A DNA stretch of 34,669 nucleotides. Origin: an uncultured Pseudomonadota bacterium (GTDB lineage Bacteria; Pseudomonadota; Alphaproteobacteria; RF32; CAG-239). The translations under genes were made by a program, and so were the position numbers. This document shows, one piece after another, positions 598 through 23,421 of this stretch. Where the stretch lies: NCBI GenBank assembly GCA_902785935.1, contig CADAAN010000015.1:1-34669 (forward strand), in the 5' to 3' direction. Position 1 is the stretch's first letter, and each line of letters opens with the position of its first letter. A model generated the notes under the pieces. The model made no database searches. It was not told the DNA's origin and saw only the letters and a list, made by a program, of their open reading frames with translations.

Positions 598-640
598 CAA
601 CAGCCTCTCCGGTATTGAGGGGCTGTTGATTTTTTTGTTT
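598..640 (+). terminator. Intrinsic terminator of pnp
   Basis: A 12-bp stem (598-609 with 617-628, starting CAACAGCC and ending GGCTGTTG, one G-T pair) closes a 7-base loop and is followed by a run of T from 630 to 637. Confidence 0.9.
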
Positions 641-667
641 GACATTTGATTTTTTATGTGCTTAAAT
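639..667 (+). promoter_or_regulatory. Sigma70-type promoter for the leader RNA and LRR gene
   Basis: TTGACA at 639-644 is followed after 17 bases by TTAAAT at 662-667 (or TAAATA after 18). It overlaps the T-run of the pnp terminator. A start near 674 would give the structured RNA described next. Confidence 0.6.
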
Positions 668-673
668 AAATAT

Positions 674-834
674 GTAACCAAAATGGTTGCGGTGTCTAAT
701 AAACACGTTTCAATGCATAACTCCTTTGAAAGAGGAGTTTCCGAGATAAGCGTATTTTACGACGAATAAAGAAGGCTGTGCATTGACAGTTTATTAGCTC
801 CTCCGTTTTAGGTTATTTAAGACGGAATTTTTTT
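674..834 (+). ncRNA. Structured leader RNA or small RNA ending in a terminator
   Basis: No open frame fits here, but the plus strand folds well. CTAATAAAC (696-704) pairs perfectly with GTTTATTAG (789-797). Inside it CAATGCA (711-717) pairs perfectly with TGCATTG (779-785). Inside that are a 9-bp hairpin (719-739, AACTCC with GGAGTT) and a 4-bp hairpin (751-761). An intrinsic terminator follows at 802-834: stem 802-810 with 818-826, then seven T. The terminator ends 10 bases before the ribosome binding site of the LRR gene, so this could be a riboswitch-like attenuator or an independent small RNA. GAGGAG (732-737) can alternatively pair with CTCCTC (798-803). I do not recognise the family. 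Confidence 0.6.
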
Positions 835-9239: not shown

Positions 9240-9842
9240 TTAGTAGAAGTACCAAGAAACTGTTGCATTGTCCGCAACACCGTTTGCATTACATGCTGTA
9301 ATGGCTGCTGACATATCATAGGCTTTACCTTCATTAGAGCCGATATATCCGAGAGGTGTTGCAGGATGTGTAGCCCCAACGCCAACGCTGATAAAGCCTG
9401 AACCGGCACCCGAGCCGAAATCAGTCGTAGCAAGAGCAATACAAGCTTCCGTCGGTAATCCGCTGTAGCTGACAACAAAACCTGTTGGGTTTTCTGTATT
9501 CTCGGCACCTAAGTTTGCGGCACTATTGCCTCTGGCGTTAACCGTCGTAATTGTCACACCACCTTTGAAGGGGTTTGTTAAAGCATTCATTGCAGTGCCC
9601 ATCACCGAAGGAATGATGCCCAAATTAATGGCATCTGTTTGCAATCCTGAGTAGTTCCCTTGTGTGCCATACATTGTGCGAATATTCGTCACAAGCATTG
9701 TGATTTGATCCATGGTGGAGTTTAATTTGTGTTTGAACATTGCTTTAGAATAACCTGCCAAACCACCGGCTGACAAAACACCGATGATAGCCAAGACACC
9801 AAGCATTTCAACCATTGAACGACCATTTTCGTTATTTTTCAT
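9240..9842 (-). CDS. Type IV pilin-like protein (paralogue 1)
   Basis: The product begins with a class III (prepilin) signal: a short basic leader ending in Gly, then RSMVEMLGVLAIIGVLSAGG, a hydrophobic helix with Glu at position 5 after the Gly. A prepilin peptidase would cleave after that Gly; position 1 is Arg rather than the usual Phe. The rest is a globular domain with Cys in EACIAL and in TACNANG, likely a C-terminal disulfide loop, and the end WYFY. ATG 9842 has AAAGGA 7 bases upstream; a TTG two codons earlier is rejected. The same N-terminal 60 residues recur in two further genes of the window. Whether it builds a pilus or a pseudopilus (secretion) is unknown; no assembly genes are nearby. 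Confidence 0.88.
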   Translation of the reverse strand: MKNNENGRSMVEMLGVLAIIGVLSAGGLAGYSKAMFKHKLNSTMDQITMLVTNIRTMYGTQGNYSGLQTDAINLGIIPSVMGTAMNALTNPFKGGVTITTVNARGNSAANLGAENTENPTGFVVSYSGLPTEACIALATTDFGSGAGSGFISVGVGATHPATPLGYIGSNEGKAYDMSAAITACNANGVADNATVSWYFY

Positions 9843-9871
9843 TTTCAATTCCTTTTAAAAAAATTATTACG

Positions 9872-9896
9872 TAAAAACCGCCCCTAAAAGAGCGGT
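9872..9896 (-). terminator. Terminator hairpin just upstream of pilin 1
   Basis: Minus-strand stem ACCGCTC with GGGCGGT (9890-9896 and 9877-9883, one T-G pair), loop of six, then five T ending at 9873. It stands about 30 bases before the pilin start codon, with no promoter seen between, so pilin 1 expression appears to need read-through. Confidence 0.65.
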
Positions 9897-10127
9897 CGGA
9901 GAGTTGAGAAATCATGCCTTAGAAGATGACTCCGATAACCTTTAGGAAAAATCCCTGAACATTCGCTATCGGCTCCCCGACTATCTTTCGGGGATAATGT
10001 GCTATATTTAAAATAAAAAATAACACCACATCAATACAGTGTTATCCTCACTGTCTAAGGCCAATGAGCTTCTCACAGCTCCGCGCCCGTCTCAGGCACT
10101 TGATAGAAAAATTCCCTTTCCTATCCA
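9877..10127 (-). ncRNA. Long structured 5' leader of pilin 1 (or independent RNA)
   Basis: This 387-base gap holds no credible gene, but its minus strand is a chain of strong hairpins between a good promoter and a terminator: 10102-10125 (GATAG/CTATC extended to about 9 bp), 10083-10099 (GTGCCT/GGGCGC), 10066-10081 (GAGCT/AGCTC), 10036-10054 (ACAGTG/CACTGT), 9974-9994 (CCCCGA/TCGGGG plus one pair), a 6-bp closing stem CCGATA/TATCGG (9932-9937 with 9967-9972) over an inner hairpin, and GGAG/CTCC around 9898-9933. ATAACAC (10039-10045) can instead pair with GTGTTAT (10020-10026), excluding one of these hairpins. I tried tmRNA, RNase P, SRP, cobalamin and c-di-GMP signatures and found none. Confidence 0.6.
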
Positions 10128-10133
10128 ACCTTT

Positions 10134-10162
10134 ATTAGACAACACAAATGGTTAATTGTCAA
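10134..10162 (-). promoter_or_regulatory. Sigma70-type promoter of the pilin 1 leader
   Basis: Minus strand: TTGACA at 10162-10157, a 17-base spacer, then TCTAAT at 10139-10134. Transcription would start near 10127 and run through the structured leader toward pilin 1. Confidence 0.75.
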
Positions 10163-10208
10163 TTAAAAAAATCTATAACTTTAGTCATAGTCCGTTTCAA
10201 AACCTTAT

Positions 10209-10233
10209 AAAAAAAGAGCCGTTAAGGCTCTAT
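10209..10233 (-). terminator. Intrinsic terminator overlapping the topA stop codon
   Basis: Minus-strand stem AGAGCC/GGCTCT (10226-10231 with 10215-10220) starts within the TAG stop codon of topA and is followed by a run of T (10209-10215). Confidence 0.8.
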
Positions 10234-12686
10234 TTTTTAGCACTGATAATCTTTAAGGCTTCATCCAAGCTTAAATCCGGCTTGCGCTGTTTTGGCGGAA
10301 TGGCATAGTTTGTCTTGCCGCATTTGATGTACAATCCATAGCGTCCGGTTGCCAAAATGATATCTTCATTCGTTTTCGGGTTTTTGCCCAAAATTGCCGG
10401 CTCAGCTTTAGCTTTAACACCGCTTAAAATCTCTTCGGCACGCTCTTTTGTGATGTTAAAAATCGTGTCTGCGCCCGTCAATGATTTCGACTTCAAACCT
10501 TGCTTGATATAAGGACCGAATTTGCCGATGTTGACCTCAATACCATCGCCCAAATCTTTGGGTAGGCTTATCAAAGTTTGTGCCTCTTCAAAAGTCAAAT
10601 CTTCCGGTTTGATAAACTTCGGCAAAGCGACGCGCTTGGGCTTTTCCGTTAAAGCGGTTGCATCATCGCCCCATTGAACATAATACCCGTACGGGCCTTT
10701 TTTCAAATAGACATTTAAGGTTTGATAAACGCCTAACAGCCTGTCTTCCGGCTTTGGCGGTAAAGGTGCAGACGATGCTTGTTCTTCTTCATCTTTGGCA
10801 TCGGTTAAGGGTTTGGTATACTTGCATGTCGGATAATTCGAACAACCTAAAAAAGCACCGAATTTGCCGAGTTTGATGCTTAAATGCCCTTGATGACATT
10901 CTGGACAAAGCCTCGGGTCAGATCCGTCTTCTTTTGGCGGAAACAGGTGATGCGCCAAAACTTCATCAATTTTTTCAATCACATCGGCAACCTTTAACGG
11001 TGCGACCTGATCAACATTTTTGATAAACTTTGCCCAAAAACCTGAAAGCAACTTTTTCCAGTCCATCTCACCGTTTGAAACATTATCCAAAAATTCTTCA
11101 AGTTGTGCGGTAAAGTCATATTCTACATATTTTTTGAAATAATTTTCCAAAAAGACCGTCACAATCCGCCCTCTGTCTTCGGGGATAAAGCGCAGTTTTT
11201 CAACCTTGACATACTTGCGTTCTTGCAAAACGGCAATAATAGAAGCATATGTCGACGGACGGCCGATGCCGAGTTCTTCCAATTTTTTAACAAGACTTGC
11301 TTCCGTAAATCTCGGCGGCGGGGTTGTCATATGCTGTTCAGGCTTAATCTCACCCTTGTCGACTTGTTCTTTCTCGTTGACATTCGGCAAAATGCGGTTT
11401 TCGTCGTCTTCTTCATCATCTTTGCTTTCCTGATAAAGCTTCAAAAAGCCGTCAAACGCAATCACCTGACCGTTGGCACGAAGCAAAATCTGCTTGTCAT
11501 TTGAGGTTGAATCAATCGTCACCTTGTCAAAAATGGCCGGTGACATTTGGCACGCAACCGTGCGCTTCCAAATAAGCTCATAAAGTTTATAAGCATCTGA
11601 ATCAAGCTTTGCTTCCATCTTTTTTGGGGTGTTCATCACATCAGACGGACGAATGGCCTCGTGCGCTTCCTGCGCATTTTTCGATTTTGTTTTATAAATC
11701 TTGGGCGATGAAGGCAAATAAGGCTTGCCAAAATATTTTTCAATTGCCTCACGACAGGCGGCTATGGCCTCATTTGATAAATTGACGGCATCGGTACGCA
11801 TATATGTAATCAAACCGTCTTCATACAATTTTTGAGCAATCTGCATCGTCTTTTTAGCTGAAAAACGAAGCTTGCGCGCAGCTTCCTGTTGCAAAGTTGA
11901 GGTCGTAAAAGGTGGCGCCGGATAACGATTGGCCTTTTTGCGCTCGACAGATGATATCTCAAAATTTTGAGCCTCAATTTTAGCCTTGGCGTCCATGGCT
12001 TTTTCTTTGGTATTTAAGTCAAATTTTTCAAGCTTTTTGCCGTCAAGGTTGATTAAATGCGAGGGAATTAAAGCCTTTTGCTGTGTTATCAAATCAACAT
12101 CAATCGTCCAATATTCTTCCGCTTTAAAATTTTCAATCTCATTTTCGCGATCACAAATCAATCTTAAAGCCACACTTTGCACACGACCTGCCGATTTTGA
12201 ACCGGGCAATTTGCGCCACAACACGGGTGATAAGGTAAAACCGACCAAATAGTCAAGCGCGCGACGCCCCATATAGGCCGAAACAAGATTTTCATCAATC
12301 TGACGCGGATTTTTAATTGCTTCCGTTACCGCGGATTTTGTAATTTCGTGAAAGACGACACGCTCTATCTTTTTGCCGGCAATTTTTTTGCGTGCGGTCA
12401 ATTCTTCCAGAATATGCCAAGCAATTGCCTCACCCTCTCTATCCGGGTCAGAGGCCAAAATCAATGTGTCGGCATCTTTTAAGGCTGTAATGATATCATT
12501 AAGGCGCTTTTTGCCGCCTTGGCTCAGCTCCCAAGTCATTTCAAAATCTTTATCGGGTGCGACCGAACCGTCTTTTGAGGGCAAATCTCTGATATGTCCG
12601 AAACTTGCCAGAACCTTATAATCCGAGCCTAAATATTTGTTAATTGTTTTGGCTTTTGCCGGAGATTCAACCACTACGAGTTTCAT
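10230..12686 (-). CDS. topA: DNA topoisomerase I
   Basis: Type IA topoisomerase that relaxes negative supercoils. The N-terminal TOPRIM domain has the conserved MKLVVVESPAKA start, a Glu at residue 7 and DPDRE at 80-84. The catalytic tyrosine is Tyr295 in GLITYMRTDA. After the core come a four-Cys zinc ribbon (CPECHQGHLSIKLG then GCSNYPTCKY) and C-terminal repeats with GKFGPYI and GRYGLYI. The 818-residue length is normal for alphaproteobacterial enzymes. Its ATG overlaps the dprA stop by 4 bases (ATGA), so the two are translationally coupled, in the plsY-dprA-topA order. Confidence 0.97.
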   Translation of the reverse strand: MKLVVVESPAKAKTINKYLGSDYKVLASFGHIRDLPSKDGSVAPDKDFEMTWELSQGGKKRLNDIITALKDADTLILASDPDREGEAIAWHILEELTARKKIAGKKIERVVFHEITKSAVTEAIKNPRQIDENLVSAYMGRRALDYLVGFTLSPVLWRKLPGSKSAGRVQSVALRLICDRENEIENFKAEEYWTIDVDLITQQKALIPSHLINLDGKKLEKFDLNTKEKAMDAKAKIEAQNFEISSVERKKANRYPAPPFTTSTLQQEAARKLRFSAKKTMQIAQKLYEDGLITYMRTDAVNLSNEAIAACREAIEKYFGKPYLPSSPKIYKTKSKNAQEAHEAIRPSDVMNTPKKMEAKLDSDAYKLYELIWKRTVACQMSPAIFDKVTIDSTSNDKQILLRANGQVIAFDGFLKLYQESKDDEEDDENRILPNVNEKEQVDKGEIKPEQHMTTPPPRFTEASLVKKLEELGIGRPSTYASIIAVLQERKYVKVEKLRFIPEDRGRIVTVFLENYFKKYVEYDFTAQLEEFLDNVSNGEMDWKKLLSGFWAKFIKNVDQVAPLKVADVIEKIDEVLAHHLFPPKEDGSDPRLCPECHQGHLSIKLGKFGAFLGCSNYPTCKYTKPLTDAKDEEEQASSAPLPPKPEDRLLGVYQTLNVYLKKGPYGYYVQWGDDATALTEKPKRVALPKFIKPEDLTFEEAQTLISLPKDLGDGIEVNIGKFGPYIKQGLKSKSLTGADTIFNITKERAEEILSGVKAKAEPAILGKNPKTNEDIILATGRYGLYIKCGKTNYAIPPKQRKPDLSLDEALKIISAKK

Positions 12687-14720: not shown

Positions 14721-15326
14721 TTAGTAGAAATACCATGTAACATATGCTGTGGTACCTTTACATGCATTAATAGCTGAGCTCATTTCCAAAGCTTTGCCTT
14801 CATTGGTTCCAACGACTTTTGCAGTTGCAGCTGCTGTACCTGTTGTACCTTTTGCTTCAACACCGATAAAGCCTGAACCGGCACCTGAACCGAAATCAGC
14901 TGTTGATAATGCAATACAAGCCTCGGGAGGTAATCCATCGTACTTAACAGTAAAACCTGTATTACCGCTTTCAGCTGTTGAATCTGTTGCATTAATAAGC
15001 CCTAAGGTTACGCTACCCTTAAAGGGGTTTGTAAGTGTAACAGCTGTTTCTGCTCCCGCAGTTCCTTCTTTAGAAGCTACCATAACTTCTGGAATGATGC
15101 CAAGCTTATATGCTTTTAACTCACTTAAACCCGCATAATTGCTTTGGCTACCATACATTGTACGAATGTTTGTCACGAGCATTGTGACTTGATCCATTGT
15201 TGAATTCAATTTGTGTTTGAACATCGCTTTGGAATAACCAGCCAAACCGCCGGCTGACAAAACACCGATGATGGCAAGAACGCCGAGCATTTCGACCATT
15301 GAACGACCATTTTGATTGTTTTTCAT
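14721..15326 (-). CDS. Type IV pilin-like protein (paralogue 2)
   Basis: Same architecture as the other two pilins: seven-residue leader ending in Gly, then RSMVEMLGVLAIIGVLSAGG, a helix continuing through GYSKAMFKHKLNSTMDQ, and a variable globular domain. Shared islands are NPFKGSVT, LPPEACIAL and FGSGAGSGFIG, with a second Cys in NACKG and the end TWYFY. The middle (about residues 62-150) differs strongly from paralogues 1 and 3. ATG 15326 has AAAGGA upstream. It lies 98 bases downstream of paralogue 3 on the same strand, with a hairpin between them and a terminator behind it, suggesting one two-gene transcript. Confidence 0.88.
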   Translation of the reverse strand: MKNNQNGRSMVEMLGVLAIIGVLSAGGLAGYSKAMFKHKLNSTMDQVTMLVTNIRTMYGSQSNYAGLSELKAYKLGIIPEVMVASKEGTAGAETAVTLTNPFKGSVTLGLINATDSTAESGNTGFTVKYDGLPPEACIALSTADFGSGAGSGFIGVEAKGTTGTAAATAKVVGTNEGKALEMSSAINACKGTTAYVTWYFY

Positions 15327-15424: not shown

Positions 15425-16060
15425 TTAATAAAATTTCCACGAAACAGATGATACACCTGAAGAACCACTGCACGCGCTAATAGCATCATCCATTGTGTAA
15501 GCGTCGCCTTCTCCACGTGCGCCTTGGCCACCTTGAACAGCAGCAACGCCGGTTCCAACGATAGCAGTCTTAGCTGTAGCAGCTGTGGTACCATTAGCAG
15601 CAACAACGCCTAAAAAGCCTGAACCTGCACCTGAACCGAAGTCAGCTGTTGCAAGTGCAATACAAGCTTCAACAGGAAGACCTGCATAAGTCACAATAAA
15701 AGCCGTTGCACCATCTGTTGCCGTAGATGCATCAGTATTTGCATCAGTTGCTTTTGCCTCATGAATTGTTACGCTTCCTTTGAATGGGTTTGTTAATGCA
15801 GAAACACTTGTCCCCATAACGGCAGGAATAATACCTAGATCAACAGCATCTGTAGATAAACCTTTATAATTACCTTGTGTTCCGTACATCGTGCGGATGT
15901 TGGTCACAAGCATGGTGATTTGTTCCATTGTGGAGTTGAGTTTGTGTTTGAACATGGCTTTTGAATAGCCGGCTAAACCGCCCGCTGACAAAACACCAAT
16001 AATGGCTAAAACGCCAAGCATTTCAACCATAGAACGACCTTTTTCATTCATTTTTTCCAT
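15425..16060 (-). CDS. Type IV pilin-like protein (paralogue 3)
   Basis: The leader MEKMNEKG is followed by the same class III signal and helix (RSMVEMLGVLAIIGVLSAGG) as the other two pilins. The globular part carries NPFKGSVT, LPVEACIAL, FGSGAGSGFLG, then a low-complexity Ala/Thr/Gly-rich insert (TTAATAKTAIVGTG, QGGQGARGEG) before the second Cys (SACSGSSG) and the end SWKFY. At 211 residues it is the longest of the three. ATG 16060 has AAAGGA upstream. It is the first gene of a likely two-pilin transcript with its own promoter and an 85-base leader. Confidence 0.88.
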   Translation of the reverse strand: MEKMNEKGRSMVEMLGVLAIIGVLSAGGLAGYSKAMFKHKLNSTMEQITMLVTNIRTMYGTQGNYKGLSTDAVDLGIIPAVMGTSVSALTNPFKGSVTIHEAKATDANTDASTATDGATAFIVTYAGLPVEACIALATADFGSGAGSGFLGVVAANGTTAATAKTAIVGTGVAAVQGGQGARGEGDAYTMDDAISACSGSSGVSSVSWKFY

Positions 16061-23058: not shown

Positions 23059-23372
23059 AGCCTTAAAAATCATAAAGGTTAAGCTCCAGATTTTTATCAA
23101 CATTTGTTGTTATTTTCAAGATAACGGCAGAATAAAATCGGCGACAATTCAATCATTGAAGCCGCCAGTGTGTAAGCTGCACTTGCCAATCTGACTTATC
23201 GTCAGCTTGGAATTTGCTTTCCATGAGCATGCGCCATAATCTCCCCGCCATGCGGGGAAATTTGATACAAAAAAACAGCATCAAATGTGACACTATTTCA
23301 TACGTATCACCAGTATAAAGAGCCTACGACAGCCCCGAACCTCTCGGTTCTATGATGAAATTTTTTTTCATC
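23059..23372. ncRNA. Hairpin-rich non-coding stretch, possible structured RNA, strand unclear
   Basis: The 528-base gap 22941-23468 has no credible gene but many perfect hairpins: CTGAC/GTCAG (about 23190-23204), TGGAA/TTCCA (about 23208-23223), CCCCGC/GCGGGG (about 23243-23257), TTTGAT/ATCAAA (about 23261-23285), GAACC/GGTTC (about 23337-23350) and GATGAAA/TTTCATC (about 23354-23371), plus a bulged GGCG/CGCC element at 23140-23166. A possible plus-strand promoter is TTGTCA near 23050 with CATAAA 16 bases on. No clear T-run follows on either strand. I could not match it to tmRNA, SRP RNA, RNase P or 6S RNA. Confidence 0.4.
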
Positions 23373-23421
23373 GTAATTTTACGGATAACAAATAAAATTT
23401 AGTTTGTAAGGAGAAAAAAAT

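Follow-up and report, generated by a model that had tools for sequence, protein, structure and literature searches.

A structured RNA leader of 255 nt, here called class I, lies ahead of a type IV pilin-like gene in the genome of an uncultured gut alphaproteobacterium. About 70 copies stand before surface genes of this genome and relatives are spread across Alphaproteobacteria and found in some Acidobacteria, so that class I, an RNA family outside Rfam 15, probably represents an RNA switch of a new class. From comparison of the sequences, we consider it rather likely that the element is a cis-acting, riboswitch-like transcription attenuator that coordinates a surface-protein regulon and belongs to an undescribed family. 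The features on which this reading is built, located in the whole 34,669-nt stretch of DNA that was analysed (the window), are given in Table 1.

Table 1. Leaders, their parts and the associated genes in the window
Feature	Position	Strand	Basis
Near-consensus sigma-70-type promoter, TTGACA-17-TCTAAT	10134..10162	minus	read from sequence; kept at nearly all copies
Promoter boxes TTGACA and TCTAAT, 17-nt spacer	10157-10162 and 10134-10139	minus	sequence
Class I leader RNA, entire element (255 nt)	9872..10126	minus	R1 match, 246.8 bits
P0, hairpin at 5' end	10102..10125	minus	predicted fold
P0b, hairpin GTGCC..GGGCGC	10083..10099	minus	covariation
P1', local hairpin, strand G1 (GGAGCT) with AGCTC	10066..10082	minus	covariation test
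P1b, 5' strand TGAGAA (loop region of P1')	10070-10075	minus	
P1b, 3' strand TTCTCA (partner 10070-10075)	9905..9910	minus	covariation
P2, 5' strand (partner 9916-9923)	10054..10062	minus	covariation
P2, 3' strand (partner 10054-10062)	9916..9923	minus	covariation
P3, hairpin CAGTG..CACTG; second partner of 3' strand at 10021-10027	10037..10053	minus	
GGTGTTA, competitor of P3 and part of P4 5' strand	10021..10027	minus	conserved alternative pairing
P4	9999-10029	minus	
Strand C2 (TCCCCGA), 5' strand of P5	9988..9994	minus	permutation test
Strand G3 (TCGGGGAG), partner C2 (P5) or C4	9973..9980	minus	permutation tests
P6, with near-invariant internal loop ATGTNCA / TAAAG	9932..9972	minus	covariation, sequence conservation
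P6, sides of internal loop	9956-9966 and 9939-9944	minus	
Strand C4 (CTCTCCGA), partner of G3, overlapping first terminator bases	9896..9903	minus	covariation
Intrinsic terminator, hairpin plus U5	9873..9897	minus	sequence and covariation
Type IV pilin-like gene (Bundlin/PilS), presumed regulated; AUG at 9842	9243..9842	minus	
Pilin paralogues	9243-9842, 14721-15326, 15425-16060	minus	
Decayed class I copy, 3' half missing, upstream of TPR-like protein gene	23143..23373	minus	R1, 27.9 bits
Class II promoter	639..667	plus	sequence; conserved in 40 aligned copies
Class II leader RNA	674..832	plus	fold z -6.3; 64 genome copies
Class II strand G3, strand C4 and terminator	731-739, 797-804 and 802-834	plus	
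BspA/LRR-like gene downstream of class II leader	855-1856	plus	

A folded leader with its own promoter and terminator

A preliminary description of this DNA had placed a promoter at 10134-10162, followed by at least seven hairpins and a terminator ahead of the pilin gene. The two boxes and their 17-nt spacer lie exactly there, and the leader (9872-10126) holds at least seven hairpins or helices in addition to the terminator. Its RNA strand folds at -100.2 kcal/mol, compared to -68.8 ± 4.6 kcal/mol for dinucleotide shuffles (z = -6.8), and the U-tract of the terminator is retained in 71 of 73 copies; both results bear out the proposed chain of hairpins and its terminator. The protein encoded downstream matched the Pfam families PF05307 (E 4.6e-16) and PF08805 (E 2.1e-12).

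About 70 copies in the home genome

A blastn search with the leader gave 41 places in the bacterium's own 1.46-Mb genome. A covariance model, R1, was built from an alignment of 38 own-genome copies and found 75 places, 71 of them above 100 bits. The single leader pictured in the preliminary description is instead one of a family of about 70 copies that reaches beyond pilins and beyond this bacterial family. The copies are about 70% alike in sequence and their layout is regular. Among the 53 best copies, the best-scoring promoter spacer measured 17 nt in 48 and the promoter ended 7-10 nt before the element in 45; in most class I copies a hairpin, P0 in the present leader, begins 7-10 nt past the -10 box. 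A same-strand ORF started within 330 nt of 66 of the 71 strong copies, with a median gap of 32 nt and most often a gap of 20-50 nt. At two loci, L046 (C3:57518-58244) and L045 (C59:4288-4793), class I leaders occur in tandem about 290-315 nt apart. Behind each of these tandem copies come a ribosome site and a short frame that enters the next copy, and the promoter part is altered.

Paired strands and their exchanges

RNAalifold predicted 48 pairs on the 38-copy alignment, of which 29 carried compensatory changes. Named helices were then compared with permutations of their 3' strands among the 38 copies, and compensatory changes back most of them. In this comparison, whose figures ignore the shared ancestry of the copies, P1b was 100% paired (71% permuted) with 57 double changes against 12.8, P2 98% paired (55% permuted) with 145 against 44.5, and the lower stem of P6 98% paired (80% permuted) with 79 against 22.1; P0b had 95% of its cells paired and 20 double changes against 8.6, and the terminator 14 against 5.5. 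P1' and P3 were 99% and 98% paired in the same copies, and P1' is a perfect GGGG..CCCC hairpin in GC-rich relatives. The internal loop of P6, ATGTNCA / TAAAG, is the most conserved sequence of the family.

Strand G3 has two candidate partners. Variable pairs of G3:C4 were 97% paired compared to 74% after permutation among the 38 copies (p 0.0005, kinship ignored), and were compensated as AG/CU, UG/CA, AA/UU and UA/UA. In a set of 92 members from diverse taxa, G3:C4 and C2:G3 (P5) both beat permuted partners, with z -9.9 and z -5.5 respectively, kinship again being ignored. On these scores G3 has two mutually exclusive partners, C2 and C4, and selection apparently acts on both. As it crosses P1b and P2, G3:C4 would be a pseudoknot if those helices persist. 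In this genome C4 shares 1-2 nt with the terminator, and in relatives up to 4 nt; with an overlap as short as that seen here, control of termination by G3:C4 is not obvious.

The preliminary description had also proposed mutually exclusive helices further upstream. P3 and the alternative pairing of TAACACT (10038-10044) with GGTGTTA (10021-10027) are indeed both present, and the exchange is conserved in 42 of 42 copies, the duplex of the P3 3' strand with the strand that follows it having a mean energy of -5.6 kcal/mol compared to -2.0 kcal/mol when shuffled. A second subtype keeps this exchange with a wholly different sequence (GGUAUC with GGAUGCC).

Other pairings behaved differently. P1a (G1:C4) gave p 0.07 once near-identical copies were left out and z -3.2 in the 92-member diverse set. 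Permutation supported G1:C2 neither in the 38 copies nor in the 92 diverse members, and no covariation was seen between the P3 loop GGATAA and TTATCC in the 38 copies. An antiterminator, AGGGUGC:CGCUCU, convincing in the single copies L030 and L032, was rejected as no better than permuted partners (p 0.55).

A second leader class

The home genome holds 64 copies of another leader, class II, which has a promoter in the style of class I and a terminator of its own and which was missed by the class I model R1. It was found in 17 of 37 other genomes searched, all within the same bacterial family. G3:C4 of class II covaries (p 0.0002), GAGGAG:CUCCUC being compensated as GGGAG:CUCCC in five copies; taken by itself, class II showed no significant covariation of C2:G3 (p 0.38). 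Judged by its strands, class II looks like a sister class of class I that shares the C2/G3/C4 logic. The clearest switch common to both leader classes is the pairing of G3 with either C2 or C4, an exchange absent from the preliminary description.

A proposed regulon of surface proteins

The proteins downstream of class I share no common homology. A scan of 64 gave 34 that matched LRR_5, and among the others were Bundlin/PilS pilins, SNase nucleases, a PLD nuclease and RHS-repeat proteins. The earlier reading of a pilin leader stood as regards its own promoter, competing helices and terminator; its restriction to pilins did not, the leader being strongly kept before other genes and common to a surface-protein regulon. 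The genome totals 80 LRR_5 genes, and a leader of either class precedes 72 of them (90%; 35 class I, 37 class II), compared to about 4% expected by chance. The same holds for 16 of 34 pilins (10 class I, 6 class II) against an expectation of about 1.5%. Together, the two classes amount to more than 130 copies and occupy 1.9% of the genome. The roughly 34 pilin paralogues, three in the window and about 31 at other loci, have N-termini that are very much alike (RSMVEMLGVLAIIGVLSAG) and divergent C-termini; 18 of them are without a leader of either class.

Relatives in other bacteria

R1 members were present in 31 of 57 genomes (the own genome and relatives), among them every genome from the genus and the majority from the family, with a match of 212.9 bits in a same-genus genome. 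A survey of 385 genomes of the class gave members in at least 30, a lower bound because five candidates were scored per genome. Searching the genome collection with a P6-core pattern returned at least 110 stretches, of which 80 were fetched and about 50 had an R1 match near 1e-8 or better. These came from records labelled Rhizobiales, Rhodobacterales, Sphingomonadales, Rickettsiales and Acidobacteria (Terriglobus and unnamed Acidobacteria MAGs). The shorter matches, e.g. in Granulicella and other rhizobia, partly echo the search pattern itself; in GC-rich members, the P1' hairpin and G3:C4 are retained independently of that pattern. A strict DNA pattern proved too strict, with 7 matches in the home genome, and gave no control matches in 684 genome searches. 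An origin in phages was considered and set aside, with two weak matches only, both in unannotated faecal contigs.

Related DNA was also found in 222 records of the plasmid collection, mostly conjugative and rhizobial. The element lies directly before traM in an Aminobacter plasmid (L245, about 2501-2727), and another plasmid element precedes an HTH regulator. TraM is the antiactivator of TraR in the quorum sensing of conjugation. A U-tract terminator was not seen in the GC-rich relatives, which have another conserved hairpin, with apex GCGGGGGCGYACCGC, downstream of C4 at the place where gut bacteria have the terminator. Hairpins with this apex range from Rhizobiales to Acidobacteria (e.g. L196, L204, L144 and L148). 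In a 3.7-Mb alphaproteobacterium (G042; L116, L124 and L131), a hairpin that follows the element apparently covers the Shine-Dalgarno sequence, again without a U-tract terminator.

Proposed mechanism and alternatives

The order of promoter, RNA with competing strands, terminator and ribosome site is that of attenuators, and for this reason attenuation was judged the best explanation. RNA polymerase would start at the dedicated promoter, make an RNA of about 250 nt with a likely pseudoknot, and then meet an intrinsic terminator some 30 nt short of the coding sequence. The polymerase would stop there or read on according to which of two exclusive arrangements of the RNA has formed: G3 may pair backward with C2 to give P5, or it may pair forward with C4, a strand adjoining the 5' arm of the terminator and overlapping it in part. 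A second exchange of strands, P3 against pairing of the P3 3' strand with the P4 5' strand, would operate upstream. We infer that termination is conditional and that the balance is set at all copies by one shared signal, which is most likely a small molecule and possibly a protein or an RNA. With one signal acting everywhere, LRR surface proteins, pilins and secreted nucleases would, we propose, be switched together. A wider proposal, which we advance tentatively as quite possible, is that two related and undescribed riboswitch classes, one of them extending through Alphaproteobacteria to Acidobacteria, bind one signal and jointly switch about 100 surface-protein and pilin genes within one genome of 1.5 Mb, rhizobial members standing before regulators of conjugation and quorum sensing (traM).

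The main rival concerns what is sensed. The leader could be an attenuator that answers a protein or a small RNA, for instance a NusG-like antitermination factor or an RNA-binding regulator, a sub-case of attenuation that is possible, if somewhat doubtful. Surface and conjugation genes such as those downstream are often under processive antitermination (EAR, ops and LoaP systems), GC-rich relatives carry the element before traM and HTH regulators, and the G-rich conserved hairpin loop of these members could be a protein site. However, the most conserved part of the RNA, the P6 loop, looks more like a ligand pocket than a loading site. Attenuation by a ribosome that translates a leader peptide from the ATG of this loop was rejected as exceedingly improbable: although ATGTNCA and the TAA that follows are nearly invariant, the ATG-TAA reading frame is random, the distances leaving remainders 0, 1 and 2 in 24, 26 and 16 own copies and in 24, 25 and 27 diverse members.

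Readings in which the gene downstream is not the target fared poorly against the placement of the copies. A dedicated promoter, a compactly folded RNA and a terminator make up every unit, as they would a free-standing gene for a trans-acting small RNA with a mere neighbour downstream, and many copies could raise its dosage. Such an RNA needs no fixed position close to a gene, whereas 66 of 71 strong copies are followed immediately by a gene on the same strand, mostly 20-50 nt away, and a leader precedes 90% of LRR_5 genes, which makes this reading unlikely. We regard as very unlikely a dispersed MITE- or REP-like repeat, or a mobile promoter module, spreading together with surface genes and devoid of any regulatory function of its own. 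The sheer number of copies of the two classes, more than 130 on 1.9% of the genome, and the existence of tandem and decayed copies would fit it, but copies differing by about 30% in sequence have kept their pairs by compensatory changes, their strand and spacing relative to the gene hardly vary, and in other orders the RNA stands before regulatory genes of an unrelated kind. No terminal repeats flanking the element were seen when 9700-10300 was searched for inverted repeats, and an invertible promoter or transposon ends were rejected in the absence of framing inverted repeats in that interval.

Should the leader prove to be an attenuator, RNA would be the shared control point for almost all LRR surface proteins of this uncultured gut alphaproteobacterium and a direct handle on how the bacterium remodels its surface. 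The approximately 135 strong leaders of the two classes (about 2% of the genome) exceed, to our knowledge, any known riboswitch regulon. As the same RNA stands before traM and other regulators on laboratory-tractable rhizobial plasmids, its signal can be sought experimentally now.

Relation to known RNA families

By now, few structured RNA families present in more than one bacterial phylum would be expected to remain outside Rfam. The preliminary description had seen no consensus motif of the c-di-GMP or cGAMP riboswitches in the leader, and in Rfam 15 no family reached its gathering score in the window, in 12 own-copy loci or in the elements of relatives and GC-rich members. The motif was absent from the open-access literature searched, subscription papers and supplements lying outside this scope, and the text of PMC8632094 and PMC11109978 held nothing resembling the class I element. 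As expected of a riboswitch, the leader has a conserved folded 5' domain with covariation across species. On the side of the expression platform, the terminator is conserved and C2:G3 excludes G3:C4, and the coupling of G3:C4 to the terminator is only partial.

One close likeness is to the c-di-GMP-I/II and cGAMP (GEMM) riboswitches, which are structured leaders before pilin and adhesin genes, with several per genome forming a regulon. These share with class I a structured leader with a terminator before pilin or surface genes and a multi-copy regulon. In contrast to them, class I matches no Rfam riboswitch model, has a likely G3:C4 pseudoknot and exchanging strands, and is present, with class II, in about 70 + 64 copies per genome. 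Attenuators of the trp type and riboswitches of the terminator/antiterminator type likewise place an intrinsic terminator immediately ahead of the gene, preceded by helices that exclude each other. Class I differs from the trp type in having no leader peptide, and a simple antiterminator is unsupported; its competing strand C4 lies beside the terminator, whereas that of classical attenuators lies inside it. EAR and LoaP-type antitermination RNAs are also RNA structures that govern surface genes, but they work in long surface-polysaccharide operons on distant terminators, while each class I leader has its own terminator, adjoins one gene and has no Rfam match.

Comparative searches have yielded other candidate structured RNAs of Alphaproteobacteria, among them odc1, HRC-8-4 and uORFC-8-2, tied to ornithine decarboxylase, cco operons and cysS (PMC8632094). 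Each of these is associated with a single gene type, unlike class I, which precedes genes that are not homologous to one another.
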